DNA from: Blastocatellia bacterium
Lineage (GTDB): Bacteria; Acidobacteriota; Blastocatellia; Pyrinomonadales; Pyrinomonadaceae
DNA length: 64,000 nt
Reading direction: 5' to 3'
NCBI GenBank assembly: GCA_003168335.1
Contig: PMSM01000013.1
Location: 310,001-374,000 of the forward strand
Below the pieces are notes generated by a model, which saw only the letters and a list, made by a program, of their open reading frames with translations, had not been told where the DNA came from and searched no databases. This document shows positions 36,374-54,572 of this stretch, piece after piece. The translations under genes and the position numbers were made by a program. Positions within the stretch are counted from its first letter, which is position 1; every line of letters begins with the position of its first letter.

Positions 36374-38827
36374 ATGCCCAAAGAGAACGCCAATCCCGCT
36401 GCCATTCTTGAAGCCATCCGGAAGATCGAGATCGTGTCTGAGCTGCTCGAGGAAAAGAACAAAAACAATCTGAAAATGATCGCCGAAGGGAAAGTGTCGG
36501 GTGGCAAGCAAATCGGTCCGTATGCGCGTTTGCTTACTTACTCTGCGGGCGAAGTGATCATGACCGAGGGCGAATGGGGCGGAAACACCTTTTATTTTTC
36601 GGTCGACGGAGAGTTGCACGTTTATGTCGCGGACGAGTCGGGTCAAAAACGGAAGGTGGGCACAGTTCAGCCGGGCACGTGCTTTGGCGAGATGTCGATT
36701 CTCGCCGGCGTTCCCCGCAATGCCACCATCGTCACCGCTCCCTCCGGTGGCGACGCGACGGTTTTGGAAATGGTCAGGCCGGCCCTCAGGCTCTTAAGGT
36801 CGCTAAGAAAATTCGCCGAGAAGGTTGACGCGAGTTATCGACTTCATGGCCTGGGAAATACGGTCGCCGCGATCCAGGAAGAGACCGGCGAGGCCTTGAG
36901 CGCAATCGAGTTGGTTGCACTCGGCAATCTGGCGCAGTTTATGGCCTACGGCAAGCACCATCTGCTGGTCGAAGAAGGGAAGCCGATCGAAAAGCTGCTC
37001 CTGATTCGCAGCGGCTGGGTGCGCCGCGTGCGCGGTGTGCCGATTTATAAGGACCTCACGGACAGTGCCGGGCCAAGTGTGCTGATCCCCGAGGATTTTC
37101 TGGGGGCGGGCAATTGCCTGGGATTAGAGGCGCTCAGCGGCCAGGCGACCTGGCAATATTCAGCCGAGCTGATGGCTCGGACTGAGGTGCTGGAGATTTC
37201 ATTGTCTGAACTGCGCGGCGACCGGAAACTCTGCGAGCGAGTTTTGAAAGCCTTCGGTGATTTTTCCGTCGCCGATGATGATACGAGCGTGCGCGCTCGC
37301 GCTGAGCCGAAGGTTCTGGCTGCGGCCGAGAAAGAAATCACAACCGGAATCGTCGACGCGGTCAACCTGCTGGTCATGGACATGGATTTGTGCGTGCGTT
37401 GCGGTAATTGCTCGCTCGCCTGTCATAAGGTCCATGGCCAATCGCGGCTCCTGCGTCGCGGCATACACATTGAACGTCCTCAGCAGATCGGATCCAAGGC
37501 TACGCAACACGTGCTGGCACCTTCAGTGTGCATGCACTGTAAGGATCCTGAGTGCCTGACCGGCTGTCCCACGGGTGCGATTTTTCGCGATCCGAAAGGA
37601 CAGGTAGACATCAATATAGACACTTGCATTGGCTGTTTCGATTGCGCGACGCAATGTCCTTACAACGCCATCTCGATGGTTCCTCGCGAGGGATCGCCGA
37701 CCGTGCCGCTGGATTTGAAGACCCGCATAAGCAATCTGTTCAGCTTCAACGTCCAGAAGCCCGCGGCGGCCGTCGAAAGCGACGACATGGTGGCTATCAA
37801 GTGCAATCTCTGTGAAAGCACGACCTTGAATCCGAGCGGTGCGTCGCGTCCGGCTTATTCGTGTGAAGAGAACTGCCCCACCGGAGCGCTGGTCCGGGTC
37901 AACCCGCAGGAATATTTCGGCGAGATTGAAAAGACCCTCGGTCTTGTCTTCCGGGATCAGACGCACGCTATCGGTCGCAATATACATAAAAGCGATCCGA
38001 TCGCCAGGCTCTGGCACATCGGCGGTGTCTTGGTGACGATAGCCATCGCCGGCGTGATTGGCTGGGCGGTCCTGCATTACGGATTCCGGGAGCACCTGCG
38101 CGGAACCTGGCTGACGATGCGTTGGGTAACCGGGCTGGTGGGTCTGGTGGGAATCGCGGGTGCGATAACCTATCCGGGTCGAAAGCAAGTGTATCGCCGG
38201 CGCGTGGGTGCTTTGCGTTACTGGCTGCTGGCGCATATTTATCTTGGGGCGCTCGGGGGCATCGTGTTGCTCATGCACGGCGGCAGTCATGGCGGCAGCT
38301 GGTTGACCTCGGTGTTGATGCTTTGGTTTGACGCGGTGATCGTGACGGGCCTTTTCGGACTGTTTTGTTACCTGATTGTGCCGCGCATCATGACCAGTAT
38401 CGAAGGCGATCCGTTGCTGATCGAAGATCTGGAAGGACGCCGGGCTGAGCTGCGCGAAGAGTTGGCGACGATCAGCGGCAAAGGCGACGCGCAACTACGT
38501 GATTTGATCGAACGAAGAGTGCGCCGCCATTTCTCATCACTCCGGTATCTCATGAGACAGTATCTGCGCGGCCAGGACTTGACCGCATCGTTGGCGAAAG
38601 GCCGTCTGGAGTTCAAAGACGAAATGGCCACCCTTGGCGACCGGGAAAAACGCCACTTATTTTTGAAAGCGATTGAGCGGGCGGCGACCCTCCGACGAGT
38701 GGAATCGCTGATCTATCTTCACCGGCTCCTCAAAGTGTGGCTGGCGCCCCATGTCATTTCAACGTCGGTGATGTTGGCTCTGATGGTTGTGCACATTATT
38801 CAGGTCGTGTTTTTTAACGTTCGCTAG
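36374..38827 (+). CDS. Cyclic-nucleotide-binding / tetra-[4Fe-4S] / diheme cytochrome b fusion
   Basis: An 817-residue inner-membrane redox protein. Domain 1 (about 45-140) is a cyclic-nucleotide-binding fold with an intact phosphate cassette, FGEMSILAGVPRNAT (Phe104, Arg115). Domain 2 (about 180-290) is a second, degenerate copy. Residues about 339-530 carry four ferredoxin-type cysteine sets (CVRCGNCSLAC, CMHCKDPECLTGC, CIGCFDCATQC, CNLCE with CEENC), the layout of DmsB/NrfC-like subunits. About five membrane helices follow, with His621/His635 and His793/His807, each pair 14 apart, as in bis-histidine diheme cytochromes b. Inferred role: cNMP-responsive electron transfer between iron-sulfur carriers and the quinone pool. 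Confidence 0.85.
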   Translation: MPKENANPAAILEAIRKIEIVSELLEEKNKNNLKMIAEGKVSGGKQIGPYARLLTYSAGEVIMTEGEWGGNTFYFSVDGELHVYVADESGQKRKVGTVQPGTCFGEMSILAGVPRNATIVTAPSGGDATVLEMVRPALRLLRSLRKFAEKVDASYRLHGLGNTVAAIQEETGEALSAIELVALGNLAQFMAYGKHHLLVEEGKPIEKLLLIRSGWVRRVRGVPIYKDLTDSAGPSVLIPEDFLGAGNCLGLEALSGQATWQYSAELMARTEVLEISLSELRGDRKLCERVLKAFGDFSVADDDTSVRARAEPKVLAAAEKEITTGIVDAVNLLVMDMDLCVRCGNCSLACHKVHGQSRLLRRGIHIERPQQIGSKATQHVLAPSVCMHCKDPECLTGCPTGAIFRDPKGQVDINIDTCIGCFDCATQCPYNAISMVPREGSPTVPLDLKTRISNLFSFNVQKPAAAVESDDMVAIKCNLCESTTLNPSGASRPAYSCEENCPTGALVRVNPQEYFGEIEKTLGLVFRDQTHAIGRNIHKSDPIARLWHIGGVLVTIAIAGVIGWAVLHYGFREHLRGTWLTMRWVTGLVGLVGIAGAITYPGRKQVYRRRVGALRYWLLAHIYLGALGGIVLLMHGGSHGGSWLTSVLMLWFDAVIVTGLFGLFCYLIVPRIMTSIEGDPLLIEDLEGRRAELREELATISGKGDAQLRDLIERRVRRHFSSLRYLMRQYLRGQDLTASLAKGRLEFKDEMATLGDREKRHLFLKAIERAATLRRVESLIYLHRLLKVWLAPHVISTSVMLALMVVHIIQVVFFNVR

Positions 38828-38857
38828 TGGTCAGTGGTCGTTTGTTAGTTGTTGCTC

Positions 38858-38956
38858 CCTTCTCCCTCTGGGAGAAGGGCTGAGGAAGAGGGCGCGAAGC
38901 GTGAGATGTCGATCACAGTCCCTCTCCCTAACCCTCTCCCGAAGGGAGAGGGGACA
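38858..38956. repeat. Inverted repeat (ccttctccc / gggagagggg type)
   Basis: CTCCCTTCTCCCTCTGGGAG and CCCTCTCCCTAACCCTCTCC with CGAAGGGAGAGGGG form facing purine/pyrimidine arms. It separates the CNB redox gene from the FHA cytochrome gene. Confidence 0.75.
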
Positions 38957-38994
38957 GAGCCAAAGGAAAACCCCTGACTTCTGACCTCTGTTTT

Positions 38995-40464
38995 ATGGAA
39001 GCTACCTTCATCATCATCCGTGAGGACTTGCAGGTCGATCCGGTGACGATCGTTGCCGAAGGCCTGCTGGTCGGGCGACTGCCTACCTGCGAACTGCTCC
39101 TGAACCACCCGTCGGTTTCCCGTCTGCATGCCGGCATCACCAGCGCCGACGGTGACTTTTACATTCGTAATCTTCGCCCCGGCAATCCCATCATGCTCAA
39201 CGGCGCGCGCCTGGAAGAATACGAAGCGCTGGCTGACGGCGATGTCATCGGCGTTGGTCCGTTTACTCTGAACATCCACTTCGTGCAAGGCACGCTGGTC
39301 ATCCAAGTATCGTTACAGATTGCCGCGACCGCGGGTGACGCGGTAACGCGCCGGGAAGCATCCGGGCTTTGGGAGCTGCCCACGACAGTGCACCTGGAAT
39401 TGCCGAGCACCCCGCCGGAAGGACACCTTGCAGAAGCAGCGCATAAGAAGCCGGCGGCACGAAAAGCAAAGCCTGCCGCGGACAGTTCAAAGGCCCTCGA
39501 CGTTTTTTGGGACAAGCGCATCACCGCGGCGACCAAGACGATCAAGCCGTCTCCACTTTTTCCGCTCACCGGGCGACCGAGCGGTAAAGCCCAGTCTGTC
39601 TGGACCCCGACTACCGATCTAAGACGGCGCTGGCCGGCGTCGCTGATGCTCTGGAGCGCGATTCCGATCGCTTTACTGTCAGTGGCGGGCGCGCTCTTCT
39701 ATGCCTCGGCGTTTGCTCCGGCCCCAATCTCTGAGGCACACACCAGATCCAGCAGACTGCTGTCGCCGCCGGTGGCGAACCGTGCGAACGCCGGCTCGTG
39801 TACTTCCTGTCACGCGTTCAGAGCGGACATGGAAGCGAAGTGCTCAGCGTGTCACGCGACGGAGGCTTTTGTGGCCACAGTGATCCAGCCGCACATGAAT
39901 GCCGGCATCGGTTGCGTGGCTTGTCACAGCGAACATCGCGGCGTGGAGTTCAACGCCATAGATGGAGCGCTGCAATCGTGTGCCGAATGCCATAACGACA
40001 GTAACCAGACTCTCTACAACGGAAAGAAAGTCAGCACCCCGCACGGTGGGACATTTGGCTATCCGGTGATCAATGGTCAGTGGAAGTGGGCCGGACTCGA
40101 CCCGGAAGAGTTGCTCCAGCGAAAGACCCCGTTGAAGCTGGAGCGGCTACCGAGCGACAGCGAGAATCAATGGCGCAGCAAACAGTTCCATGCAGTCCAT
40201 GCGTATCGGGTTCGTGCGATTGGAGGGCTTCCGGGAGACAAAGAAGGCGAATTGAGCTGTCCGAGTTGTCATGCTACGCAAAACCCTCCCGATTTAGCTA
40301 CGCCACGAACGACGTGCGCCAAGTGCCACAACGGTCAAGAGGATCCCCGGGCGCGACATCAGGTGATCGCTGCCGACAAACCTAACTGCACCTCATGCCA
40401 TATTCAGCACCGTCTGGACAAAAGACATTGGAATCCGGGTTTACTGGCGAAAGCGACGCAATGA
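38995..40464 (+). CDS. FHA domain - membrane helix - heptaheme cytochrome c
   Basis: A 489-residue fusion of a signalling reader and a cytochrome. The N-terminal FHA domain (about 20-105) keeps the phosphothreonine-binding residues: VGRLPTCELLL, PSVSRLHAG and NPIMLNGARL. A basic linker leads to one membrane helix (about 215-240). The C-terminal part (about 267-470) has seven CxxCH motifs: CTSCH, CSACH, CVACH, CAECH, CPSCH, CAKCH, CTSCH. With FHA in the cytosol and hemes in the periplasm, the helix would link protein phosphorylation to periplasmic electron flow. It follows the CNB redox gene on the same strand by 167 nt and is probably its partner. Confidence 0.88.
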   Translation: MEATFIIIREDLQVDPVTIVAEGLLVGRLPTCELLLNHPSVSRLHAGITSADGDFYIRNLRPGNPIMLNGARLEEYEALADGDVIGVGPFTLNIHFVQGTLVIQVSLQIAATAGDAVTRREASGLWELPTTVHLELPSTPPEGHLAEAAHKKPAARKAKPAADSSKALDVFWDKRITAATKTIKPSPLFPLTGRPSGKAQSVWTPTTDLRRRWPASLMLWSAIPIALLSVAGALFYASAFAPAPISEAHTRSSRLLSPPVANRANAGSCTSCHAFRADMEAKCSACHATEAFVATVIQPHMNAGIGCVACHSEHRGVEFNAIDGALQSCAECHNDSNQTLYNGKKVSTPHGGTFGYPVINGQWKWAGLDPEELLQRKTPLKLERLPSDSENQWRSKQFHAVHAYRVRAIGGLPGDKEGELSCPSCHATQNPPDLATPRTTCAKCHNGQEDPRARHQVIAADKPNCTSCHIQHRLDKRHWNPGLLAKATQ

Positions 40465-40494
40465 ATTTGAGGATTGTCCGTTGAGAGGGCGACG

Positions 40495-40735
40495 AGAGTT
40501 GAAGCGCCAAAGGCGCGAAATGTAAAAGCCCAGGGCATCGCCCTGGGTTCCGGCATTAGAAGAAAGACCAATTAGCCCCAACGGGGCGAAATGATGGTGG
40601 CAGAGAGAGGATGCAGCGTGTATGCCGCGCCTTCAGCGCTCGCGGGTCTTCGTTGCTGCGACCTGGGGCGTTGCCCCAGGCTATTGCATTGCGCGCTTTC
40701 AGCGCTCTCTAAATCTTCGGATTATTTGCTGAGAA
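40495..40735. repeat. Hairpin-rich intergenic block (290 nt gap)
   Basis: Short hairpins in series: GCGCCAAAGGCGC, GCCCAGGGCATCGCCCTGGG, GCCCCAACGGGGC, GCGCCTTCAGCGCTC, CCTGGGGCGTTGCCCCAGG and GCGCTTTCAGCGC. No ORF is supported. The block separates the convergent FHA cytochrome and tetraheme genes. Confidence 0.75.
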
Positions 40736-40754
40736 GTTGAATGACGTGGCAACG

Positions 40755-41333
40755 TCACTTCGCGACGTGACACTTCACACAGCCCTTTGGATCAGAACCT
40801 GCCGTTTTCGTGGCCAGATCGGGCCGCGCTTTGATGGCGGCATCGTGGCAGGCAAAACAATTGGTGTGATAGGCGACTTCGTTGTCGAGCTTCAGTTGCT
40901 TGGCGTCTTTGGTGATCACCGGAAGTGGCTTGCTGTCGTCACCGGCTTGCAAGTGACATGAGCGGCAACCTTTCACTGGCGCAGCGGCAGCATCTTTCAG
41001 CACGTCGGCGGTGAGAGCGACAGTTCTTTCCGAAGTAACAAGTGGCAGCGTCAGCTTATCTTTCGGCTGATCGGTGTGGTGGCATTCGATGCAGGTGCCA
41101 GTGGTCTTTCCATCCGGAGTGTAGTTCTTGATCGTGTGGTTTTCGTGGTCGAACGCAACTTCCCCCCACTTGTCGTCGAGGCTGTCGGTATCCAGCTTGA
41201 CCTTCTTCGGCTGCTCTTTGCTTTCCTTTGGTATCTGCTGGACCAGCGACGCGGAAGTGCGCGCCACATTACCGACAAATCCGAGTGCCAACACACTAAG
41301 TACCACGATCAAACCAAGCAGCAGCCGTTTCAT
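40755..41333 (-). CDS. Periplasmic tetraheme cytochrome c
   Basis: A 192-residue exported protein with a signal peptide (hydrophobic residues 3-20) and four CxxCH motifs: CIECH, CRSCH, CFACH and CVKCH. Extra histidines (DHENH, AYH) can supply distal ligands. The spacing resembles class III / c3-c7 cytochromes. It is the last gene of a six-gene minus-strand series starting at the HbpS-like gene. Likely role: small periplasmic electron shuttle (inference). Confidence 0.88.
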   Translation of the reverse strand: MKRLLLGLIVVLSVLALGFVGNVARTSASLVQQIPKESKEQPKKVKLDTDSLDDKWGEVAFDHENHTIKNYTPDGKTTGTCIECHHTDQPKDKLTLPLVTSERTVALTADVLKDAAAAPVKGCRSCHLQAGDDSKPLPVITKDAKQLKLDNEVAYHTNCFACHDAAIKARPDLATKTAGSDPKGCVKCHVAK

Positions 41334-41414
41334 GTCTTGTTCGTCCTCCTCGCCAATCTTATTGACGCGATTGAAAGCTTGTCAAACAGGTTGGATGCGC
41401 GATTAGTAGAGCGC

Positions 41415-41518
41415 GTTTAGAGTACCAACTTTAGTTGGGTTCTTCTGAGTCGACAAAGACCTGAATGAAGTCGGTACTCTGAGCGTCGCGGATTAGCCTC
41501 AAGTCCCAACTCTAAACG
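41415..41518. repeat. Inverted repeat between tetraheme and nonaheme genes
   Basis: GTTTAGAGTACCAACTTTAG is followed by a partial inverse AAGTCGGTACTCTGA and by CCCAACTCTAAAC, giving nested arms around about 100 nt. The right end overlaps the last codons of the nonaheme gene. Confidence 0.65.
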
Positions 41519-42308
41519 ACTGCCCGGTGTGACATCGGTGGCAAGCCTTGAAATCCAGATCTCCTCCGAAGGATCGCTTTCCGCTATGACAAGTGGCGCA
41601 GGTGTTATTGCCGTTGGGGAAGTGTTCCAAAGCCCGGGGCGAACTGACTTGTCGTTTTTGTGGCAACCCCGCGGTGTAGTTGTGACAATCGGCGCAACCG
41701 AGACGCTGGCGCCCGCTGTGTTGCGCGTGGCTGAACGCGAGACGAAATGCGGTGGCATCAGTCGACGTTCTGCCATACGGTTTTTGATCGTGACAGACGC
41801 CGCACGATGCGAGGTCACGTCCTTTCGATTGCGAGTTCGGAGTGTGACAGGTGTAGCACTGGTCATGCGCCGCAAGATTCGCCGGAATAGACAGCGCCAT
41901 CCTGCGCCTGAGCGATGAGGCGTGACATGAGATACAGCCATTCTTTGGACGCGCGGCACCGGTCAGGTGCTGGGCATGATCGAACTTCAGGTTGAAGCTT
42001 TCTTTGAAGCTGCTGGGAAAAGCCTTTCGCGGCGGCTGGTTACCGTTCACGTCCGTGTGGCAGATAAAGCACATGGGCGTGTTGGGCGTGCCGAACTGTG
42101 TTCCGTGGCATCCGAAGCAATCCTTGTGACCGGGGAAGCTGGGCTGCGCGGAGTTGTCATTTCGATGATGACAAGCCGAACACGCGACCGACGCATGACG
42201 CTGACTCGTGTGCAGAAACTTCGAGTAGTCCAGATCGTTACCCTGGGGCAGAGCGAAGGAAAAAGGAAAAAGTAAAAAGGAAAACAGAAGGGCTGAGCTG
42301 GCGATCAT
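41499..42308 (-). CDS. Periplasmic nonaheme cytochrome c, shorter paralogue
   Basis: A 269-residue protein from ATG 42308, where a clean signal peptide begins (MIASSALLFSFLLF); the frame stays open further upstream but the extra residues are not protein-like and cross a hairpin block. Nine CxxCH: CSACH, CFGCH, CFICH, CISCH, CYTCH, CGVCH, CADCH, CATCH, CHRCH. The opening KFLHTSQRHASVACSACH resembles that of the next gene, so the two are paralogues. Probable periplasmic electron wire. Confidence 0.87.
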   Translation of the reverse strand: MIASSALLFSFLLFPFSFALPQGNDLDYSKFLHTSQRHASVACSACHHRNDNSAQPSFPGHKDCFGCHGTQFGTPNTPMCFICHTDVNGNQPPRKAFPSSFKESFNLKFDHAQHLTGAARPKNGCISCHASSLRRRMALSIPANLAAHDQCYTCHTPNSQSKGRDLASCGVCHDQKPYGRTSTDATAFRLAFSHAQHSGRQRLGCADCHNYTAGLPQKRQVSSPRALEHFPNGNNTCATCHSGKRSFGGDLDFKACHRCHTGQSFRVGT

Positions 42309-42365
42309 TCTTCTTTGAAGACATCGATCAACGAGCCATCGCAGATGGCGGTAGGTTTCAGCAGC

Positions 42366-42581: not shown

Positions 42582-43700
42582 TTACTGTACCGCCGCTTCA
42601 TGGCTCGCCGGCGGCTTTTTCCGTCCCACGTCTGGCGTATGGCAATAGTGGCACTCGCCGGTCTTCTTGAATTGCGCCAGCTCACTTTCGATCGTCACGA
42701 TATTTTTGTAAGTGATCGTCTTGTTGTCATTGTGGCAGGCTTCGCAACTGGCAATCGGCACATCAGGAGTAAGACCGCTCAAGGTCCTGGCTCGCGTAAT
42801 ATTGATGTGACAGGTCGTGCACTCAGCCACGTGTGCACCCTGGCCGCCCTCATGACTGAACTTCGCAGACTTGCGCGGCGGCAGATCCAGACCGATAAAC
42901 GTGGCCGCAGGCTTATGACAACCAGCACAATCGTCGCCGGTCGGCCGCTGGTTCTGCCAGTGACAGTTGAAGCAGGAGTCGTGCGAGTGAGGCATGGTTT
43001 TGAAGAACCTGTTTGGCTGCGTTGTCGCATTCGCCGGGGTCGTGAGCGGAACAATGTTCGTAATGTTGTTCGGCTGGTGACAGATTGAGCAGTTGTTGTA
43101 CTCAGGCTTCTTCTCGTCTACGGTTTGTGGTTCGAAGAACGAAGTGCGAATAAAGCTCACTCGGTTGTCTGTGGACGGTTTAGGGCGCACTGAGGCGATC
43201 ACGTTCTGATGTTTGTCGTGAGGGAACTCGATCATAAACTGCCGTTCATCTTTCGGCTTTGTGGCCTGGCTGGCGCCGTTCGGTTTGCCGAAACTGAAGC
43301 GCCCATCTTCGCGCGGCGCGGCCCGCACATGACAGACCGTACAAATTGTCGGACCCGGGCCCACGAATGATTGTCGCGTAAAAAACTGCTGTCGATGACA
43401 ACGGACACAGGCGTCATGGTTTGGAAAGTCAGCGACGTCGGGAAACGCGCGCTTAGCCGTCCAGTCAGTCGGGACCTTGTGACAGGCATTGCACGCCAGA
43501 CCCTTGTGCTTTTCAGATGAGTGGAGAAAGGCTGAGTACTTAGTTGCAGAGCCTCGCGGTGCTTGTGCCGATGAAGCAGCAACACGTTTGGGGCGACGCC
43601 TTTGAGCGTTGACGACTTCCTCGATGGACCACCGGGGATAGATCACTCCGATCGCGAGCGCAATCGCGAACAGAAGTAAGGGAATGGTTACGCGTTTCAT
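42582..43700 (-). CDS. Periplasmic nonaheme cytochrome c, longer paralogue
   Basis: A 372-residue exported protein. A signal peptide or membrane anchor occupies residues 5-21. Nine CxxCH: CNACH, CVRCH, CTVCH, CSICH, CFNCH, CAGCH, CTTCH, CEACH, CHYCH. The FLHSSEKHKGLACNACH opening matches the shorter paralogue, and spaced histidines (FPHDKH, MPHSHD) are candidate distal ligands. The extra 100 residues lie mostly between hemes 3 and 5. Electron donors and acceptors are unknown. Confidence 0.88.
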   Translation of the reverse strand: MKRVTIPLLLFAIALAIGVIYPRWSIEEVVNAQRRRPKRVAASSAQAPRGSATKYSAFLHSSEKHKGLACNACHKVPTDWTAKRAFPDVADFPNHDACVRCHRQQFFTRQSFVGPGPTICTVCHVRAAPREDGRFSFGKPNGASQATKPKDERQFMIEFPHDKHQNVIASVRPKPSTDNRVSFIRTSFFEPQTVDEKKPEYNNCSICHQPNNITNIVPLTTPANATTQPNRFFKTMPHSHDSCFNCHWQNQRPTGDDCAGCHKPAATFIGLDLPPRKSAKFSHEGGQGAHVAECTTCHINITRARTLSGLTPDVPIASCEACHNDNKTITYKNIVTIESELAQFKKTGECHYCHTPDVGRKKPPASHEAAVQ

Positions 43701-43719
43701 CGAAAGGTTTCGACAACTC

Positions 43720-43828: not shown

Positions 43829-44623
43829 TCACTTCACAGTCTTCTCACAAACCGGCAATGGTCGTTCGATAATTTCGCATTTAACCTTCGGGTCCTTCTC
43901 GTTCGAAAGAATCAAAGGCCGCATCGCGATCGCCAGGTTCCCGGCCTTAACTTCTTTTTCGCAGGCCCAGAGAATGCTGGTTTTCTCGGCCTCGCTGCCG
44001 ACGAGATTCGAGATCGTGTAGGTGCCGGGCTCGATGTCGGTCAGATATGCCGTGCCCTTCCGATCAGTCATCACCGACATGACCTTCGTCGTGATGGCAG
44101 TCTCAGCCTGCGTAATCAGATTGGTAATGACTCGCTGCTTTTCATTGTAGAAGCCGTCCCGAATATCCGCGGGCAGATTGACCGTAAGCCAACGCCGCGC
44201 CAGCTCCGGGGTTTTGAATTCGCGTAGCCCCTGATTGTATGCGGCCTGGAATTCGGGCACGGCGTCACTCCCGCTCAAATACTTTTCTTCAATCTCGCGG
44301 CAATAGACTGAGTCACACTCGTTATCGTTCAGCCACTTAATCAGAGCTTCGCTGGCGCCCCGGCCGCGGTAGTAGCACTCGCGCGACATCGGATCAGTTT
44401 GTTTGATCCTCTCGATCAGGCTCTTGTTTTCTTCGAGCGTGCCTTTAATCAGGAAGAAGCGTTTGCGGGGTAAATCTTTCGACTTATATCTAACCTTCAG
44501 ACGGATGACACCGCGAGTCGCCGGCTCGGGCGTCTGAGCATGGCTCAGCAGATCGCCTACGAGAAGCATAGTCACGATCAGTGTGCCGACAACGAAGGGA
44601 CTGAAGGTTCGCAAACTCTTCAT
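43829..44623 (-). CDS. Secreted protein, unknown, in cytochrome cluster
   Basis: A 264-residue protein from ATG 44623, chosen because a signal peptide starts there (about residues 8-28, ending near SHAQ). The middle is charged and helical with several cysteines (ECYYRGRG, NECDSVYC). The C-terminal third (KGTAYLTDIEPGTYTISNLVG) looks like a transthyretin-like beta-sandwich segment. No CxxCH is present. Its position between the DUF4431-like gene and the nonaheme cytochrome gene suggests a role in the same envelope system. Confidence 0.7.
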   Translation of the reverse strand: MKSLRTFSPFVVGTLIVTMLLVGDLLSHAQTPEPATRGVIRLKVRYKSKDLPRKRFFLIKGTLEENKSLIERIKQTDPMSRECYYRGRGASEALIKWLNDNECDSVYCREIEEKYLSGSDAVPEFQAAYNQGLREFKTPELARRWLTVNLPADIRDGFYNEKQRVITNLITQAETAITTKVMSVMTDRKGTAYLTDIEPGTYTISNLVGSEAEKTSILWACEKEVKAGNLAIAMRPLILSNEKDPKVKCEIIERPLPVCEKTVK

Positions 44624-44651: not shown

Positions 44652-45086
44652 TCACGTCGCCCTCTTAATTGAAGAAACGTCAATTAAGATTTTTGTATGA
44701 TGATGTCCCGTGTGTGCGTGGATTAGCGTTCCCTCGACTGTGACCCGCCGTTTCAGGTAAAACCTAACCGGGTGCGGTGTGGATTCGCCGAACACTAGCG
44801 TTACTCTCTTCACGCCGCGCTCGGTTGCACTCAGCGCATCCTGCTTGACTGCGATTATGTCGATAGCCGAATCCAGGAGAAGGATACTCTGGGTTTCCTT
44901 ACTATCGGTCTTGGGATTCTCTCCATAATTCGGCGGTCCATAGAAGGTCCTGTAAACAAGTCTGCCCGTCAACGTAACTTTCTCAGGCCAATAATGGAGC
45001 ACTCTTCGTTCGTTGCCAGCTTGAGAAGCCGCGATGTAAAGATGAAGGCAGGCGATGAAAATGAAAATACAAAGTGGTTTCTTCAC
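44652..45086 (-). CDS. DUF4431-like secreted protein
   Basis: A 144-residue exported protein. GTG 45086 is preferred because AGGAAA lies 6 nt upstream and a normal signal peptide follows (KKPLCIFIFIACLHLYIAAS); ATG 45116 lacks a ribosome site. The body VTLTGRLVYRTFYGPPNYGE, a following SILLLDSAIDI and a final strand VEGTLIHAHTGHHHTKILIDV resemble DUF4431. His-rich HAHTGHHH could bind metal or heme (inference). Confidence 0.65.
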   Translation of the reverse strand: MKKPLCIFIFIACLHLYIAASQAGNERRVLHYWPEKVTLTGRLVYRTFYGPPNYGENPKTDSKETQSILLLDSAIDIIAVKQDALSATERGVKRVTLVFGESTPHPVRFYLKRRVTVEGTLIHAHTGHHHTKILIDVSSIKRAT

Positions 45087-45171
45087 GGAATTTCCTGTTA
45101 GTGTCCGATCTTTCATTTTTTACGCCGGCTATCGTTATGCGTACTGCGAAAGTAAGACGCAAAGGGCAAAA

Positions 45172-47334
45172 CTATAGATTCGGGCTGCGCGGAAGCTTAA
45201 CAAATGGCAGACGCACGCTGCGCACAAAAAACTGATCGGCGCGAATGTTGACCGGTGGCGTGTAGCCGACACTTCCTCCGGCGGCGATCAAATCGTCCTG
45301 GTCAATGCCGTCGCCGCTGATGCCGATCGCGCCGACCAACTCGCCGTTCTTATAAAGCGGAATGCTGCCCGCAAAGATTTGCAGCCCATTCGCCAGATTC
45401 GGTAGCGATGTGCACGGCGCCACGCCGCCCGCAAGCACTGTCTGCAGATTCGTCTTGATCAGATCGAGTTGCAGTCCAACGTTGAAAACGCTCCACTGAT
45501 CTATTGGCGGACTGAATGGCCCGGGCGCAGTGTTGTTGATGCCGTCCGGAAAGAAGGGGCGGTGCAGAAAACCAATCGCGCGATCGCTGAGCGCAATCGC
45601 GCCATTGAGTTGTACGCCGTCACTCGCGGCCCGCGTGACGTAAGCACCAAAGCCTGCGCCGTTCAATAACGCTCCCGCATTTGCGCGCGAAAACAACGCC
45701 GCCGTGCGCGCCTTCTGGACCGCTACGTCGAACCCAAACACCGGCGCATCCGTCTGGCGGAAGACGCCGAGCACCACGCCGTTTGTATCAACCACCGCTA
45801 TCGTCACCCGCGCGTTGCTGCCGAGCGGTTGCCGGATCGCCGCGCGGGTAATGTTTCCCTGCTGGGCAGCGTGCGCAACGATCGTGCTGACATCGGCAGC
45901 AGTGAGCGAGTTCGGCGTGATCGTAGGGCTGCCGACAAAGGGAAAGAAACGTGTGTCGACTTCGCCGGCGATGCCGCCAACGACCGCGGCGGTGAATTCT
46001 GATGGTTGCGCTCCGCGAATTGGAAACAAAGGATCTACCGTGCCGGGCAAACTTAAGAACGCCATCGTGGGCGGAGCGGGCGCGTTGGTGACGTTGAGGT
46101 AAGCGAGTCGAATGCCGTCGACGAGAATGTTGTCACCGCGTATCAATGATGGAGCTTCGAAACCGCGCGCGGCCGACACTGCTATCACTTCTTCGAACGG
46201 CTGATCGAAATCAGACGGATCGCGATCGACGGTATAGAGGCCATCGCCTTCGATGCCCACACCGCCGACTGCTTCGCCGTTTTTATAAATCGGCACGCTG
46301 CCGGGATCTCCGCTCAGGCCGAGCGGCAGCCCGGGTATCTTGATGTCCGAACAGGGAAGCGAAGAAAACTGCACGCCGTAGAGTGGACCGCCTGAGCGAA
46401 AATCGACGCCCGGGGGAAAATGTTCCTGGAGGATAAAGCCCGCCGTGCGCGAAGTGAAAGCATTGCCGCCCGTGCTGAACAAAGACGCCGTGCCGGCCTT
46501 CGAGATTGCCGCCAGCTTTGCCGGCACCACGGTTCCATCAAGCCCGACCGGGACGAATCCGGTAAGCGGGTTGGGAACTTGCGAAGGCCCCGGTCCACCA
46601 CCGCGAAATTGGGTCGAGGCAGGTGCGCCGTTCATCTTGAAAACGCCCAGTACATTTCCTTCTCGATCAGTGACCGCAACGGTCACCGGATGATTCAACG
46701 CGGCGGCGGTCGAAACCGCCTGCGCGATGATCGTCTGCACCTCGGACGTGCTGAGCGTGCCCGCCGTGCTTGCGTGTGGCGCCGGTGGGGTGGTTGATCC
46801 CGGGGTCGGGATCGCGCCGGTGTCGTCGGGCGGGCCATCGCCTACGTGACCAATGCCGACGCGCACGCGATTGCTCTGCGTCCCGTGATAACTAATTCCT
46901 ACCAGGACGTCGCCCGTGTCTCCCATCTGATCGTCGAGCCGCAGCACGATCGAACTAAGCCATTCCTGCTCAGGTACCGGTCCGACGTATTCAACTGCCA
47001 ATTGATAGATATTGTGCGCGCCATCTTCCGCATCTGCGGTAACCGCGGTGGCTGCTTCGCCCGGCTGCAAACTCAAGCCCATCGCAAAGATCATAATGCG
47101 AGTGCGACTGTCCGATCCCCAGGGCACCGCCGCAGCCGCAGAGAAAGGCTCGTGCGTCTGGGTCACTGAATCGACAGCCACCGCGCGGGTAGAAGTCTCT
47201 TCGCTGATCAGTGTTAGCTTGTTGCTTTGTGAGTGCGCTTGGCTGAAGAAAGTAAGGCTGGCGAAAACCACGAGCGCGCAAATGGACGTTGCCAGCACAA
47301 AGCGCGTGCGTTTGACCAGAGACTTAGCTGTCAT
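45172..47334 (-). CDS. Exported protein with two GlcG/HbpS (DUF336) domains
   Basis: A 720-residue protein with a signal peptide (residues 10-33). An N-terminal beta-sandwich (about 60-165) precedes two GlcG/HbpS-like domains at about 193-420 and 478-715. Each contains the family pattern VTVAVTDREGNVLGVFKM / VTIAVVDTNGVVLGVFRQ, then a helix with TAALFS, and a C-terminal SVPIYKNGEAVGGVGIEGDG / SIPLYKNGELVGAIGISGDG. HbpS binds heme in Streptomyces, but heme binding is not assured here. It is the first gene of the minus-strand cytochrome series. Confidence 0.85.
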   Translation of the reverse strand: MTAKSLVKRTRFVLATSICALVVFASLTFFSQAHSQSNKLTLISEETSTRAVAVDSVTQTHEPFSAAAAVPWGSDSRTRIMIFAMGLSLQPGEAATAVTADAEDGAHNIYQLAVEYVGPVPEQEWLSSIVLRLDDQMGDTGDVLVGISYHGTQSNRVRVGIGHVGDGPPDDTGAIPTPGSTTPPAPHASTAGTLSTSEVQTIIAQAVSTAAALNHPVTVAVTDREGNVLGVFKMNGAPASTQFRGGGPGPSQVPNPLTGFVPVGLDGTVVPAKLAAISKAGTASLFSTGGNAFTSRTAGFILQEHFPPGVDFRSGGPLYGVQFSSLPCSDIKIPGLPLGLSGDPGSVPIYKNGEAVGGVGIEGDGLYTVDRDPSDFDQPFEEVIAVSAARGFEAPSLIRGDNILVDGIRLAYLNVTNAPAPPTMAFLSLPGTVDPLFPIRGAQPSEFTAAVVGGIAGEVDTRFFPFVGSPTITPNSLTAADVSTIVAHAAQQGNITRAAIRQPLGSNARVTIAVVDTNGVVLGVFRQTDAPVFGFDVAVQKARTAALFSRANAGALLNGAGFGAYVTRAASDGVQLNGAIALSDRAIGFLHRPFFPDGINNTAPGPFSPPIDQWSVFNVGLQLDLIKTNLQTVLAGGVAPCTSLPNLANGLQIFAGSIPLYKNGELVGAIGISGDGIDQDDLIAAGGSVGYTPPVNIRADQFFVRSVRLPFVKLPRSPNL

Positions 47335-47727: not shown

Positions 47728-49875
47728 TTGATAGGAACTGCCTGCTATGCTACAAAACGATCAATCTTGACGCGGCTATTACTAGTCATGGCTTTTATCT
47801 TGACCCTGGCCTTGTCTGCCTACGGACAAAAACGGGGAACGATCGCTGGCGTCGTTAAGTCAAACCAAACCCTCTCTGGCGTTACGGTCGTCGCCACAAA
47901 TCAGGTCAATAGCAAAGTTATTCGGACCAGCGTCGGCGGCGACGGACGCTATTCATTGAAACTTCCGCCGGGCGCATATCGTGTCAGCGTCGAACTTCCT
48001 TACGTCGCGAAGTTTGATAAAGCAAAAAACTATGGCGCACATGCGTTGATTCGTGACGAGTCTTTGGAAAACGTCATCGTCAGCGGCGGCAAGGAGACGA
48101 CGATCGATTTCGCGGTCGAGAAGCGAGCCGGGAATCCGCTGGTCAACCTTCCCGAACGCAAACCTCCGGGTGCCGCCGGAGAGCAGAGCGTCGAATCAGA
48201 ACCGCAAACGGAACCGGATCGCCGGCCGGTGCGCGATCGCTGGCGCATAGGCTTTCCCGAATACGATCGCTACGGTGACAAAGGCGCGCGGGGTCGCGAC
48301 ATTCCTTTCAGGAAAGGCCGCTGGTACGACCCGTACGATCAGAGCTGGCTGAAGGGCGACTATCCGATCATCGGTAATAAGACATTTATGATTCTTTCGG
48401 CAGTGAGTTCGACGGATGTCGAACTGCGGCGCACCCCGACGCCTTCGGATGTCAGCAGCGCGCGAGCGGGCAGCGCGGAGTTCTTTGGCCGGCCGGAAGC
48501 GCTCTCCGTGAATCAGATTTTCCAGATGACTTTCGAGATGTTTCACGGCGACTCGACCTTCAAACCACGTGACTGGGCCATTAAGATTTCACCGACCTTC
48601 AGTCTTCCCAACTATCTCAACGCGCGCGAAAACGGCGTAGTGAACATCGATGTCAGACGCGGCACCAACCGCACGGACACGCAATTCTCGCTCGAAGAAG
48701 CTTTCGTTGAAAAGAAGTTGAAGGACGTCGACGCAAACTTTGATTTCATCTCGGCGCGGGTTGGGATTCAGCCGTTCGTTTCGGATTTTCGCGGCTTCAT
48801 CTTCTCGGATAACAATCTGGGGGCGCGGGTCTTCGGGGCGTTTGATAATAATCGTTACCAGTACAATCTCGCTTATTTCGCACAGCTCGAGAAAGACACG
48901 AACAGCGGGCTTAATCGTTTTGATCGCCGCAATCAGAACGTCTACATCGCGAATATTTTTCGGCAGGACTTTATCAAGAAAGGTTATACGATCCAGGCCA
49001 GCGCGCTCTACAATGATGACCGCGCCAGCCGCAAATTCGATCGTAATGGATTTTTGGTGCGGCCCGCCTTGATTGGCGACGCGCGGCCGCACTCGATCAA
49101 GGTTGGTTACATAGGCGTCAATGGCGATGGGCATTTGGGCCGATTGAATCTGACGAATTCTTATTACTACGCTTTCGGCCGCGACGATCGCAATCCCATC
49201 GCCGGACGCGGCGTGCACATAAGTTCACAGATGGCGGCAGTGGAAGCGTCAGTTGATAAGGACTACTTTCGTTTTCGCGGCTCGTTTTTCTGGGCGCAGG
49301 GCGACAAGAATCCGACCGATGGAAAGGCGACGGGTTTTGACGCAATCTTCGACGATCCGAATTTCGTTGGCGGACAATTCTCGTTTTGGAATCGCAACGG
49401 CATACGCTTAACGCAAACCGGCGTCGGGCTGGTGCAACCAAACAGCATTTTGCCTTCGCTGCGCAGCAGCAAGATTGAGGGCCAGGCCAACTTTGTCAAT
49501 CCGGGGATCTTGATCTATAACGCGGGCGTTGATGTGGAGATTACGCAAAGACTGAAAGCTATCTTCAACGTCAACTATCTGCGCTTTCATCGCACTGAGT
49601 CGCTGGAATACATTCTGTTTCAGCCGCATATTCGTCACGAGATCGGTTGGGACTATAGCGTGGGCGTCGCGTACCGGCCTTTGCTAATCAACAATGTGAC
49701 GCTCACCTTCGGCGCGGCGACGCTGAAGCCGGGACGCGGCTTTCGCGACATCTACACGAGTGCGAACAGCAACTGTCCGCCGAACCTGTCGGACTTTTGC
49801 ACGGCGGACAACACCGTCATTAATCCGAGCAAGCCTTTGTTCAATCTGTTCGCGCAGGTGAAGTTTGTTTTTTAG
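47728..49875 (+). CDS. Outer-membrane beta-barrel candidate with N-terminal regulatory-like domain
   Basis: A 715-residue exported protein. The signal peptide ends near AYGQ (residue 34); TTG 47728 is the longest start, with TTG 47767 possible. Residues about 36-105 form a carboxypeptidase-regulatory-like sandwich (GVVKSNQTLSGVTVVATNQ, GRYSLKLPPGAYRVSV). From about 200 onward, alternating hydrophobic/polar strands rich in Phe/Tyr end in FAQVKFVF, typical of outer-membrane barrels. No TonB plug motif is seen. It lies upstream of the large LVIVD cytochrome gene with the RAYT between, so a porin partner for cytochromes is possible. Confidence 0.75.
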   Translation: MIGTACYATKRSILTRLLLVMAFILTLALSAYGQKRGTIAGVVKSNQTLSGVTVVATNQVNSKVIRTSVGGDGRYSLKLPPGAYRVSVELPYVAKFDKAKNYGAHALIRDESLENVIVSGGKETTIDFAVEKRAGNPLVNLPERKPPGAAGEQSVESEPQTEPDRRPVRDRWRIGFPEYDRYGDKGARGRDIPFRKGRWYDPYDQSWLKGDYPIIGNKTFMILSAVSSTDVELRRTPTPSDVSSARAGSAEFFGRPEALSVNQIFQMTFEMFHGDSTFKPRDWAIKISPTFSLPNYLNARENGVVNIDVRRGTNRTDTQFSLEEAFVEKKLKDVDANFDFISARVGIQPFVSDFRGFIFSDNNLGARVFGAFDNNRYQYNLAYFAQLEKDTNSGLNRFDRRNQNVYIANIFRQDFIKKGYTIQASALYNDDRASRKFDRNGFLVRPALIGDARPHSIKVGYIGVNGDGHLGRLNLTNSYYYAFGRDDRNPIAGRGVHISSQMAAVEASVDKDYFRFRGSFFWAQGDKNPTDGKATGFDAIFDDPNFVGGQFSFWNRNGIRLTQTGVGLVQPNSILPSLRSSKIEGQANFVNPGILIYNAGVDVEITQRLKAIFNVNYLRFHRTESLEYILFQPHIRHEIGWDYSVGVAYRPLLINNVTLTFGAATLKPGRGFRDIYTSANSNCPPNLSDFCTADNTVINPSKPLFNLFAQVKFVF

Positions 49876-49895
49876 AAGAATGAAACACGAAGAAC

Positions 49896-49921
49896 GGTTT
49901 AGAGGCGGGCTACCGCCCGCC
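49896..49921. repeat. REP family B, left flank of RAYT
   Basis: GGTTTAGAGGCGGGC, loop TACC, GCCCGCC. It lies 11 nt before the RAYT start codon, opposite in orientation to the right-flank copy. Confidence 0.92.
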
Positions 49922-49932
49922 AGTTCTAAGCG

Positions 49933-50538
49933 ATGAAGCTTTTCAAGTCGAACGAGCCGAATACGTTCCACTACGTCACGCTGGTTACACATAACCGCGT
50001 GCCGGTTTTTCGCAGCGAGCAGGCCTGCAAGATTTTCGTTGACGTGCTGGCCGAAGTTCGAGAGAAGTTTCCTTACAAGCTTATTGGCTATGTGTTAATG
50101 CTTGATCACGTGCACGCCATCGTCAACAATCGAAGTGGCACCATAAGCGACTGGCTTCGACGCGTCCGAGGCAATTCCGCGCGGAAGATCCTCGCTTGGT
50201 TGCGAGAGGAGCGACATCTGATGTCGCTTAAGAAGCTGGCGCTAGCCCACCCGCAGAAACGGCAACATACACACGCCGTCTGGCAAAAAGACCCGTCGGT
50301 TATTGATTTGTGGAGTCACAGATTCATTCGACAGAAACTAAACTATCTGCATTTGAATCCTGTAAGAGCGGGGTTGTGCGAACATCCAGCCGACTGGAAG
50401 TGGTCGAGCTATCGTGCATATGTGCCACACAAAGTAAGCGAGGTTCCGATTGAAGTCGATTGGCAAGCGTATTGGAAAGAAGACGAGTTGGAAATCGAGA
50501 AAGTTGCGGAGGTTCAGCGTCGAAAGGGCGGGCGGTAG
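49933..50538 (+). CDS. REP-associated tyrosine transposase (RAYT)
   Basis: A 201-residue Y1/HUH single-strand transposase of the RAYT class. The metal-binding HUH motif is His59-Val-His61 in LDHVHAIV. The nucleophile candidate is Tyr138 in NYLHLNPVRAGL, followed by WKWSSYRAY. RAYTs are thought to recognise and move REP hairpins. Family B REPs flank the gene in inverted orientation, and the right one overlaps the final codons and stop (RKGGR, TAG). The protein looks intact. It lies between the barrel and large cytochrome genes. Confidence 0.93.
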   Translation: MKLFKSNEPNTFHYVTLVTHNRVPVFRSEQACKIFVDVLAEVREKFPYKLIGYVLMLDHVHAIVNNRSGTISDWLRRVRGNSARKILAWLREERHLMSLKKLALAHPQKRQHTHAVWQKDPSVIDLWSHRFIRQKLNYLHLNPVRAGLCEHPADWKWSSYRAYVPHKVSEVPIEVDWQAYWKEDELEIEKVAEVQRRKGGR

Positions 50539-50551
50539 CCCGCCTCTAAAC
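50526..50551. repeat. REP family B, right flank of RAYT (overlaps stop codon)
   Basis: GGGCGGGC, loop GGTA, GCCCGCC then TCTAAAC. The RAYT TAG (50536-50538) is formed by the loop and first stem base of this hairpin. Confidence 0.92.
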
Positions 50552-50573
50552 GGGGCGTTTATTTTTTAAGTTG

Positions 50574-53500
50574 ATGAATCAGCGTAACGAAATGCGGCTC
50601 AAGCTCGTAGTCATCCTGGCCCTAATTGTCGGCTCATGTGCGACGGTTTTGACTCGTGTTGATTCATCCGTGGCCAGTAGCTCAACCGGCAGTTCTCCGC
50701 TGTCCGCTAATGCCGCAGCCGCTGAAGCGCTCGAAGGCTGTCTGAAATGTCACGACAAGATCGAACCGATGCACAGGTTCGGCCCGACGGTGACTTTGGA
50801 CAATCTCGATCATGGCAAAGACGCTTTGGGTCTTACCTGTACAGCTTGTCACGGCGGCAATCCGATCGCGACCGAAAAGGAAGCGGCGCACGTGCGGCCG
50901 CGTTTCCCGCGCGAGTGGGAACAAAACGGAAAGTTCAAAATTCCTGAGAGGTCAGGACCACTGCTCGCCCGAGAGAGTCTCGAGTTTGTGCGCTTCATTA
51001 ATCCGGGCGACCTGCGCGTGTCGAACAAAACATGCGGCGGTGAGTGTCACAGCACCGAGACGAGTGCGGTGTCCAACAGCATGATGAGACACGGGGCGAT
51101 GCTTTGGGGCGCGGCCCTCTACAACAACGGCGGCTTTCCGATTAAGGACGCGAGCTTTGGCGAGAGTTACAGCGAAGACGGCGCGCCGCAGAAACTGATC
51201 CAGGTTCCGCAGCCAACTGCCGAGCAGCGCCGGACGAAGGGAGTGCTGTCGTTTCTCGATCCGCTTCCGCGTTGGGAAATTTCGCAACCAGGCAATGTCT
51301 TGCGCGTCTTTGAGCGCGGCGGCAAGCGCCGGCTGGAAGTGGGACTGCCCGATAAAGATGAAGATCCCGGCAAGCCTGACAAGGGACTAAGCACGCGCGG
51401 ACTGGGCACGGCGCAACGGACTGATCCGGTCTATCTGGGTTTGCAGAAGACGCGTCTGTTGGATCCGACGCTGAACTTTCTCGGCACGAACGATCACGGG
51501 GGTGATTATCGTTCGTCAGGATGCACGGCATGTCACGTCATCTATGCCAACGATCGTGATCCGCGGCACTCGGCCATCTACAGCGCGGCCGGAAATCGCG
51601 GCATGTCGCAATCCTCAGACGTAAGCATTCCCAAGAACGAGTCGGGCCATCCGATCAAACATCAGTTGACCAGCCGCATTCCGACTTCGCAGTGCATGAT
51701 CTGTCACATGCATCCGGGCGAAAACATGGTTGCGTCTTATCTCGGTCTGATTTGGTGGGACAACGAAACTGATGGCGACAGAATGTATCCGGCCGAGCAG
51801 CATGACCCGACGCAGTCTGAGGAGCAGAGAAAGCTCAACCGCAATCCTGAGGCGGCCAGCCTGCGCGGTTTGTGGTCGGAACCGGACTTTCTGAATAAAA
51901 CCGGAACGGCGGAATTCAACAACCGGCTGAAACGCACGCAGTTTGCCGACTTTCACGGGCATGGCTGGATATTTCGTCAGGTCTTCAAACGAGATCGGGA
52001 AGGGAACCTGCTCGACGCAAAGAATGCGATTGTCTCGCCTGACGATCCGGATCGATTCAAGAAAGCGGTCCATCTCAACGACATTCATCTCGAGAAAGGC
52101 ATGCAGTGCGTTGATTGCCACTTCCGGCAAGACGCGCACGGTAATGGCATTCTCTACAACGAACCGCGCGCTGCTATTGAGATTGGTTGCATTGATTGCC
52201 ACGGCTCGATTCGTGAGCGAGCGACCCTGGTCACTTCAGGGCCCGCTGCGGGGTTTGGCACAAAGGACGGCAAGTTCGCAGAGGTCCCTAAACGTAATCT
52301 CGCGACAATTCGCTTTCGCAGTCCGGAAGGTGATCGACAGTTGTTGTTTCAGCGCATAAGAAATGACTCGAAGCGAAAGGACGAGAACGGAAACGAGATC
52401 GCGCTGAAAGCCGGCGACGTCGTGCAGAATTCGATCGTGGTGCCGGGCCGCTGGTGGCGGGTGAAGCAGACCGCCGACACGATCAATCCGAATGCACCAC
52501 ACCCGGAAGACTACAGTATGAAGTCGCGCTATGCGAAGACGATGCGCACCGACAACGCGACCTGGGGCGACGTGCCCGCGGACGACAAACAGCTCGCCCA
52601 TCGCGATTCCAACATGACCTGCTTTGCGTGTCACTCGTCATGGATGACCAGTTGTTTTGGCTGCCATCTCTCGATGCAGGCGAATCGCAAAATGCCCAAT
52701 CGTCACAACGAAGGTGGCGACACCCGCAATTTCACCACCTATAACTATCAAGTCTTGCGCGACGATGTGTTTATGCTCGGCCGTGACGGCACGGTTACGG
52801 GCAATCGGATCGCGCCGGTGCGTTCTTCGAGCGCGGTCCTGGTCAGCTCGCAGAATCAAAATCGAGAGTGGATCTATTCGCAGCAGCAGACTGTTTCGGC
52901 GGAAGGTTTTTCGGGCCAGACTTTCAATACGCATGTGCCGCACACGGTCCGCGCGACCGAGACCAAAGGCTGCAGCGATTGTCACGTCTCAAAGCAGAAC
53001 GACAACAACGCCTGGATGGCCCAGACGCTCTTGCTGGGCACCAACTTCGTCAACTTCATGGGGCGATATGTCTACGTTGCGGCGGACGATGCACTCGCAG
53101 CAGTGGTCGCGACTGAGCGCACTGAACCGCAGGCCGTCATCGGCAGCACGCTGCATAAAATTGCTTATCCGGAGAACTATCGAAAATTTGTGAACGGCGG
53201 AGCCGAGCTGGGCGAAGCTTATGAGCACAAGGGCAATCCCCGCGTGTTGCAGGTGCAACTGCGTGGTGAGTACGCCTACGTGGCTGCGGGTGAAGGCGGC
53301 CTGCGCGTGTACGATGTCGCGCAGATCGATCAGAAGGGATTCTCAGAACGCATCACGACCGCGCCGGTTTCGCGTTTCGGACAGAAATTCTACGTCAAGA
53401 CAAAGTACGCGACGGCGGTGGCGGCGCCGTCGACTCTGGCTGTCGATCCGGCGCGCTGGCGGATGACTACCGATGGACAGATGGTTGATCCGGATCGCGC

Positions 53501-54572
53501 GCGACAATTGCCCGCCGACAAACTAGTCAACGAAGAACAGCCGATTCATTCGCTTTACGCTTATTTATATTTGGTTGATAAGTTCGAAGGATTGATTCTG
53601 GTGAACGCGGCCACGCTGCTGGATGGCGACCCGCTGAATAACTATCTGAAGCGCCAACTCGATCCAAACAAGTATGCTAACGGAGCGTTCAATCCTGACG
53701 GTGCGCTTACGGGAGCGAACAACATCGTCCTCGCGGGCGCCTACGCTTATATTACGACCGACCGTGAACTCGTAATCGTCAACCTCGACGATCCGCTTAA
53801 CCCAAAGATCACCGGTCGTATTGCCGCGCCGTTGCTCAAGCATCCGCGCGCGGTTGCGATTCAATTTAGGTACGGCTTTGTCGTCGATGACGATGGCCTG
53901 AAGGTCATTGATCTAACTGAGCCAGGGAGCGCGCGAGTGGTCGAAGGCGCGCTGGTGCCGCTGGCTGATGCGCGCGACGTGTACGCGGCGCGCACCTACG
54001 CCTACGTGGCCGACGGTAAGGACGGGATGGCGATTATTGATGTGAAGCTGCCGGAGAAACCGCGCAGCGTCCAAATTTACAGCGCGGGCGGTCAACTAAA
54101 CGATACGCGGCAGGTGAAGATCGCCATGACCAATGCGAGCCTGTTTGCCTACGTCGCTGACGGAAAAAATGGTTTGCGGATCGTGCAACTAACTTCTCCG
54201 GAGACGATGGCGACTTATGCCGGCTTCAGTCCGCGGCCTGAGCCGCAATTGATTGCCACCTTCAAAACAAAAGGTGCCGCGCTGGCTGTTTCCAAAGCTC
54301 TCGATCGTGATCGGGCCGTGGATGAGAGCGGTCACCAGATCGCCGTCTTTGGCCGGCGTGGCGCGCGACCATTTACGTTTGCGGAAATGCAGCGGACGCT
54401 CCGGACCAACGAAGGGCAGGGGCCATTATTTACCGTCACTGACGAGCCGACCACAGAGCCGCGCAACCCGAAAGCGGCTGGTCTTTCCAAGTCGGCCGCC
54501 CTCGTTGGCGTTTTGTCAGGACTGCTTCTCGCTGTCGCCGGTTGGCGGATGCGCGGACGCGGGTTGGGGTGA
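50574..54572 (+). CDS. Large multiheme cytochrome c with C-terminal LVIVD propeller
   Basis: A 1332-residue exported protein. A hydrophobic signal (about 8-25) contains VGSC, a possible lipobox. Nine CxxCH motifs lie between about residues 55 and 800 (CLKCH, CTACH, CTACH, CMICH, CVDCH, CIDCH, CFACH, CFGCH, CSDCH). A tenth candidate is noncanonical: Cys154-Gly-Gly-Glu-Cys158-His159, a CX3CH. From about 840 to 1240, repeats like [15 protein letters not shown] and [16 protein letters not shown] are LVIVD units of a beta-propeller. A C-terminal hydrophobic helix with basic end follows (about 1305-1330). Inferred role: surface or outer-membrane terminal electron carrier. ATG 50592 is an alternative start. 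Confidence 0.88.

Follow-up and report, generated by a model that had tools for sequence, protein, structure and literature searches.

A conserved multihaem gene set in Blastocatellia, interpreted as a trans-envelope electron conduit with cyclic-nucleotide-binding and FHA domains at its putative inner-membrane entry

Gene content of the locus

We analysed a 64,000-nucleotide window of a Blastocatellia bacterium genome (GenBank assembly GCA_003168335.1, contig PMSM01000013.1, positions 310,001 to 374,000; host genome 5.16 Mb, 14 contigs), focusing on a cluster of multihaem cytochrome and envelope protein genes at window positions 36374-54572, which we label A to I and K. The original prediction had read this locus as a signal-gated electron-transfer system with 38 CxxCH haem motifs and one CX3CH. 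The eleven open reading frames (ORFs) of this span lie at the coordinates given there, and its motif total was recounted exactly: seven CxxCH in B, four in C, nine each in D, E and K, and the single CX3CH also in K. Shuffled versions of the proteins contain 0.00-0.08 CxxCH per protein. The ORFs described there are all present, and its gene list lacked one, a transposase-like ORF at 49933-50538 between I and K.

Architecture of proteins A and B

Protein A (36374..38827, forward strand, 817 amino acids) joins tandem cyclic-nucleotide-binding (CNB) domains to an iron-sulfur region and a C-terminal cytochrome b-type membrane domain. The CNB domains occupy residues 1-300 (cNMP_binding, two stretches, 7.5e-24), and their closest relatives in the PDB are the regulatory domains of PKA and PKG. 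The first (36536..36739, forward strand) has the CNB fold with a canonical phosphate-binding cassette (FGEMS...PRNAT); of 73 aligned A proteins, 70 keep its phosphate-binding Glu and 69 its Arg. The second is degenerate-looking. Residues 333-505 (37370..37888, forward strand) contain 16 invariant Cys in four sets, enough for about four [4Fe-4S] clusters, and resemble DmsB, NrfC and ArrB. A CX3CH at residue 346 of this region was considered as a haem site and rejected, its cysteines being part of the invariant [4Fe-4S] motif.

The membrane domain (37997..38824, forward strand) has helices at approximately residues 542-569, 582-604, 614-635, 643-676 and 790-816 in the predicted structure (predicted local distance difference test score, pLDDT, 74). 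Nearly all of the 73 proteins share histidines 548, 621, 635, 793 and 807, the pairs 621/635 and 793/807 each being spaced by 14 residues. In bc1-type and ferric-reductase-type cytochromes, such a spacing marks two haems held between a pair of helices. Assignment of A to a known cytochrome b family was attempted and abandoned for want of a confident Pfam match: against PF01292 (cytochrome b561/Ni-hydrogenase cytochrome b), A-type relatives score E 0.45 to 1.4e-4, all below the cut-off, and the window's A gives no match, while the fold-search lists (Foldseek, VIA-align 2) are filled by CNB-domain matches. Since this domain cannot be placed in a family with confidence, we infer the number and orientation of its haems, which are presumably b-type.

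Protein B (38995..40464, forward strand) carries an N-terminal FHA domain (5e-15) followed by a heptahaem region with a cytochrome c3/c7 match. ImcH is likewise a heptahaem protein. Since B has a single membrane helix, near residues 217-243, and no N-terminal signal peptide, its FHA domain should be cytosolic and its seven haems periplasmic. The Gly-Arg, Ser and Asn of the phosphothreonine site are all present in the window's B; among 63 orthologues Ser42 is kept in 61, Asn69 in 63, His45 in 52 and Arg28, which is not universal, in 48. The two signal-reading domains named in the original prediction, cNMP-binding in A and FHA in B, are therefore real. In the haem region of B, seven conserved histidines outside the motifs match the seven motifs (His38 of the FHA domain left out). 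A search of 297 genomes of the phylum found B only in the host's own class.

Secreted cytochromes and the barrel-decahaem pair

Downstream on the reverse strand lie genes for three cytochromes with signal-like N-termini: C (40755..41333), a tetrahaem c3/c7-type protein; D (41499..42308), a nonahaem protein; and E (42582..43700), a distant paralogue of D with 8-9 haems. Counted by CxxCH motifs they hold 4, 9 and 9 haems, 22 together. The annotated ORF of D extends to 42542, its start probably lying at about 42308. Conserved histidines outside the motifs number four for four haem motifs in C, nine for nine in D and eight for seven in E. In B, C, D and K these counts equal the haem motifs, the outcome that bis-His haems would produce, and no obvious open catalytic haem is left; the four proteins look as expected for bis-His wires rather than for catalytic haem proteins. 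The presence of D alone is not diagnostic of the set because the host genome holds a second multihaem cluster (L175, C1:415000-432000) with paralogues of C, D and E. That cluster also encodes CbcL-like, NrfH-like heptahaem and ExtP-like cytochrome b proteins, as well as a DmsE-type decahaem beside a 763-amino-acid ORF (a possible barrel), and is likely a second electron conduit.

The next genes on the reverse strand include F (43829..44623, start probably about 44623), for a small secreted protein of unassigned fold that is kept with the cluster inside the family, and H (45172..47334), for a secreted double HbpS/GlcG-like, heme-binding protein (HbpS-like domains, 1e-21) that is kept beside I and K in relatives and has a Sphingobium homologue of 41% identity.

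Protein I (47728..49875, forward strand) is predicted to form an outer-membrane barrel of 18 strands, preceded by a CarboxypepD_reg domain at the N-terminus; AlgE and OprD-family porins are its best structural neighbours (template modelling score by target about 0.6). In several relatives the N-terminal domain is swapped for a tetrahaem domain, which ties the barrel to electron handling. Protein K (50571..54572, forward strand) combines c3/c7 matches with a C-terminal LVIVD propeller (1.6e-14). In 22 other K proteins its CX3CH is matched by CX2CH or CX4CH, giving K ten haem sites; the possibility that it is a degenerate site was rejected on this alignment of orthologues. All 23 full-length K orthologues have ten sites, with the third spaced as CX2-4CH, and ten further invariant histidines lie outside the motifs. 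Comparison of K with solved structures returned a single, insignificant match. In one relative (G001:C119), K is split over several frames in a metagenome-assembled contig, which is probably a matter of sequence quality and not a real pseudogene.

Conservation and recurrence of the gene set

The original prediction was that these genes form a single redox system, a view that would have failed had they never been found together in related genomes. B directly follows A on the same strand at 63 of 64 distinct loci with room downstream, and at the sole exception (L111) B likewise lies downstream of A. I was found in 36 genomes and immediately precedes K in every one of them. An earlier reading of the barrel as a later add-on, suggested by 20-kb neighbourhoods in which I appeared only in the genus, was rejected, I and K being a fixed pair across the class. 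Among the 60 relatives, searches detected A in 38 and K matches in 38. Both occur in 36 relatives, A only in 2, K only in 1 and neither in 21 (Fisher 6.6e-13; one weak K match, in G051, is counted as absent), and within the host's own family the corresponding numbers are 17, 2, 0 and 17 (2e-8); these p-values ignore shared ancestry, though presence is patchy even inside the family.

Three arrangements recur (arrowheads give the direction of transcription, FAD a flavin adenine dinucleotide oxidoreductase gene described below): A>B>(FAD>)C<D<E<F<H<I>K>, K<I<H>F>E>D>C>A>B>FAD> and I>K>C>E>D>A>B+FAD>. The core set thus lies within a single block in some relatives. In a further relative (G017, L039 3674-7309), an MtrA/MtrB-type decahaem and barrel pair, scoring above the NCBIfam cut-offs, stands downstream of A-B-FAD. 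Together with the second C-D-E cluster of the host, this pair supports an electron-conduit role for the modules.

The set also recurs far outside the class. On the Sphingobium plasmid pMSHV (L190, 795000-818500), a rearranged version occupies about 21 kb, with, in order, a C554-type cytochrome and homologues of H (41%), I (39%) and K (44% over the full length, ten haems); the opposite strand encodes a 599-amino-acid FHA-like-membrane-10-haem protein, a 296-amino-acid cytochrome b and an 825-amino-acid FAD-CNB-CNB-4Fe-4S protein. The 296-residue cytochrome b is homologous to the C-terminus of A (5.7e-12). The FHA match of the 599-residue protein is below the Pfam cut-off (0.0054), and the related Yop-YscD_cpl model matches at 3.6e-6. 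The two halves of the plasmid set are separated by a YdeI/OmpD-like gene and a metallophosphoesterase gene. K is present on thirteen sphingomonad plasmids; Sphingobium is an aerobic genus. In a Binataceae genome, genes for a CNB2-FeS protein, a small membrane protein matching the cytochrome b part of A and an 8-haem-FAD protein stand in a row. That these domains appear in distant hosts, fused in different ways, suggests that they work together. Conserved synteny, co-occurrence and recurrence across phyla strongly support the single-system view, and by this comparative evidence the genes almost certainly form one system.

A flavoprotein partner and the likely electron donor

In the majority of other genera, the gene after B, or a fused extension of B itself, encodes a YpdA/thioredoxin-reductase-like FAD domain together with a 4Fe-4S region of two clusters. 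The YpdA match of this partner reaches 2.3e-42, and bacillithiol disulfide reductase structures also match; it differs from YpdA in carrying the 4Fe-4S region and in its frequent fusion to B. The host genome lacks such a gene beside B; elsewhere it has a 35% match that covers the FAD part, but no homologue of full length. Given the FAD/[4Fe-4S] partner in most relatives, NAD(P)H coupling is a better description of the ancestral complex than quinol coupling, and the electron source of that complex was probably NAD(P)H. The quinone source is the weak point of the original prediction, the NAD(P)H-type oxidoreductase of the relatives pointing instead to a cytosolic NAD(P)H donor.

Comparison with known electron conduits

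In outline, the set is similar to the Geobacter extHIJKLMNOPQS cluster (ExtI porin, ExtM 12-haem, ExtO Rieske, ExtP cytochrome b; PMC5877670, PMC6148476), with which it shares a porin-like outer-membrane barrel, large multihaem cytochromes and a b-type cytochrome/Fe-S entry at the inner membrane, all encoded in one cluster. Part of K aligns with the ExtM model at 1.8e-20, the score being 72.8 bits against a cut-off of 800. Domain searches found no Rieske protein or ExtP-type cytochrome b within A-K, the ExtP-like gene of this genome lying in its second cluster. CNB, FHA and FAD modules are not described for ext, and the LVIVD propeller of K is a further difference.

In its presumed working, the set is like MtrCAB and OmcB-OmaB-OmbB, in which a barrel and multihaem cytochrome pair is fed by periplasmic and inner-membrane cytochromes, and the joint encoding of such a pair is seen here in I and K. 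However, I gives no NCBIfam match to the MtrB/PioB family (TIGR03509), for which the control barrel near A-B in G017 scores 241.5 bits; C, D, E and K score below the cut-off or not at all against the DmsE/MtrA-type decahaem model (TIGR03508); and neither I nor K matches the MtrB and MtrC/OmcA models above cut-off. The 18 predicted, AlgE/OprD-like strands of I also set the pair apart from Mtr-type conduits, as does the lipobox status of K (see Discussion). By the tests made, the set is outside the Mtr and ext families.

CymA, CbcL/MtoC and ImcH (PMC6295460) are comparable as multihaem proteins that are anchored in the membrane and deliver electrons to the periplasm. Unlike these, B consists of an FHA domain, one helix and its haems, and A of CNB, 4x[4Fe-4S] and cytochrome b parts, with the FAD partner added in relatives; no NapC/NirT domain or FdnI-type cytochrome b with an N-terminal multihaem region was found in A or B. 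The Fe-S region of A is of the same type as the DmsB/NrfC/ArrB four-cluster subunits of the CISM family, but it is fused to CNB and cytochrome b domains, and the cluster lacks a molybdopterin catalytic subunit and NrfD. No description of the gene set was found in the open-access literature, which, with subscription journals outside the scope, is weak evidence of novelty.

Discussion

On balance, we favour the explanation that the set forms an envelope-spanning conduit with a signal-responsive entry complex at the inner membrane. A and B would together constitute this complex, fed in most relatives by NAD(P)H via the [4Fe-4S]/FAD subunit; because that subunit is missing in the host genus, we propose a soluble reductase or a ferredoxin as the donor there. 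Electrons would come in at the four [4Fe-4S] clusters of A, which would pass them across the membrane by way of its b-type haem domain to the seven haems of B in the periplasm. C, D and E could then ferry them through the periplasm to I and K at the outer membrane, with humics, Fe(III) or other redox compounds as possible final acceptors beyond K. On the cytosolic side, cAMP/cGMP acting through the cNMP domain of A, and Thr phosphorylation through the FHA domain of B, may modulate how the entry complex works or is assembled. That the chain spans the envelope is likely; that electrons flow outward is somewhat less so, though still the direction we would expect.

Several observations weigh against this interpretation. 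All readings of transport given here, including complex formation, the order and direction of electron transfer, the outer-membrane location of K, gating and the acceptor, derive from sequence and structure prediction. The model of I is of moderate quality (pLDDT 60), and the best Pfam match of the membrane domain of A, Ni_hydr_CYTB, is weak, with no confident family. No conserved lipobox was found among K orthologues and the C-terminal hydrophobic tail of K is missing in Sphingobium, so that surface exposure of K is uncertain. In some genomes, A-B lies at one place and I-K-(C-E-D) elsewhere. The FHA Arg is gone in 15 of 63 B orthologues, and the cyclase neighbourhoods discussed below amount to few independent cases.

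The chain could instead end in the periplasm or inner membrane, I serving as a porin and K handling a small substrate in periplasmic reduction or detoxification rather than export. The resemblance of I to the 18-strand substrate porins AlgE and OprD, with no MtrB-type barrel match, would fit such a role, as would the missing lipobox and the sub-cut-off similarity of K to ExtM of the Geobacter selenite/tellurite cluster, in which ExtI is the proposed porin for selenite (PMC5877670). The ten invariant non-motif histidines for the ten haems of K, which leave no obvious open catalytic haem, argue the other way, and the tetrahaem domain on I in some relatives suggests that the barrel handles electrons; we therefore regard a periplasmic end as rather unlikely. 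Inward flow, with K and I accepting outside electrons and A-B(-FAD) feeding the quinone pool or NAD(P)+/ferredoxin, appears less probable again. The direction of an all-wire chain is not diagnostic, an NAD(P)H-type FAD module is reversible in principle and related conduits have been implicated both ways (PMC6295460), but NAD(P)+ reduction from most extracellular donors would be uphill, and no carbon-fixation or known iron-oxidation genes were seen here, though none were sought. Chance grouping of functionally unconnected envelope redox genes, which the mixed strands in the window and the non-wire character of F, G and H might suggest, is hardly credible: it was rejected on the class-wide conserved synteny and the recurrence in Alphaproteobacteria.

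Within the envelope-spanning conduit that we favour, direct control of the entry complex by these signals, as suggested by domain composition, seems slightly the better supposition. The host is able to make both signals, its genome encoding about four cyclases of class III and about 38 Ser/Thr kinases. Orthologues of an FHA-GAF-cyclase neighbour A-B in genera g37 and g45, and H-I-K in family f4; in the latter, the cyclase and an NDH-2-like dehydrogenase-CNB fusion flank H-I-K (L168 13550-15190 and 2360-3994). The host orthologue (41%; L191 2633-4372, C8:260632-262371) lies on the same contig as the cluster at a distance of about 84 kb and is a candidate cognate cyclase. These neighbourhoods are suggestive only. 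The CNB and FHA domains might alternatively be structural docking modules free of cNMP or phosphothreonine control. In keeping with this, the FHA Arg is replaced by Ser in 13 and the His by Gln in 11 of the 63 B orthologues, the second CNB domain looks degenerate, and no FHA was detected in the multihaem partners of Binataceae and of family f7. Yet the first CNB domain retains its phosphate-binding residues, Glu and Arg, CNB recurs across three phyla and the FHA-GAF-cyclase neighbours occur as described, and we consider pure docking doubtful.

Known conduits have mostly been studied in anaerobes (Geobacter, Shewanella) and are thought to be controlled by gene expression. The present set extends across Blastocatellia, a class common in soil that includes Chloracidobacterium, and is also carried by Sphingobium plasmids, which provide culturable hosts for the system. 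If CNB and FHA gate entry, a cell could open or close electron export within seconds. More tentatively, and against our own leaning, the set might represent an as yet undescribed cross-phylum respiratory-type complex of mainly aerobic bacteria, in which an entry complex of CNB, [4Fe-4S], cytochrome b and FHA-multihaem parts, fed by NAD(P)H or ferredoxin, delivers to an outer-membrane barrel-decahaem pair, its output switched directly and post-translationally by cyclic nucleotide and Ser/Thr phosphorylation. The reading also offers a testable function for many 'unknown multihaem' genes of Acidobacteriota (PMC8100337).

Neighbouring genes

Gene G (44652-45116), which encodes a DUF4431 secreted protein between F and H, had been counted as a member of the cluster. 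Relatives do not have it at this position, only the window's copy of the cluster carrying it, and it is probably outside the system. Upstream of A (29975-36075), an alpha-2-macroglobulin-like protein and a DUF1175 gene keep their position across the genus and are apparently unrelated to the redox cluster. The ORF at 49933-50538 is an IS200-like transposase of the RAYT type (Y1_Tnp, 2.2e-7) with two weak further copies in the host genome; it occupies the I-K intergenic gap here, and in several relatives I and K are a few bases apart.

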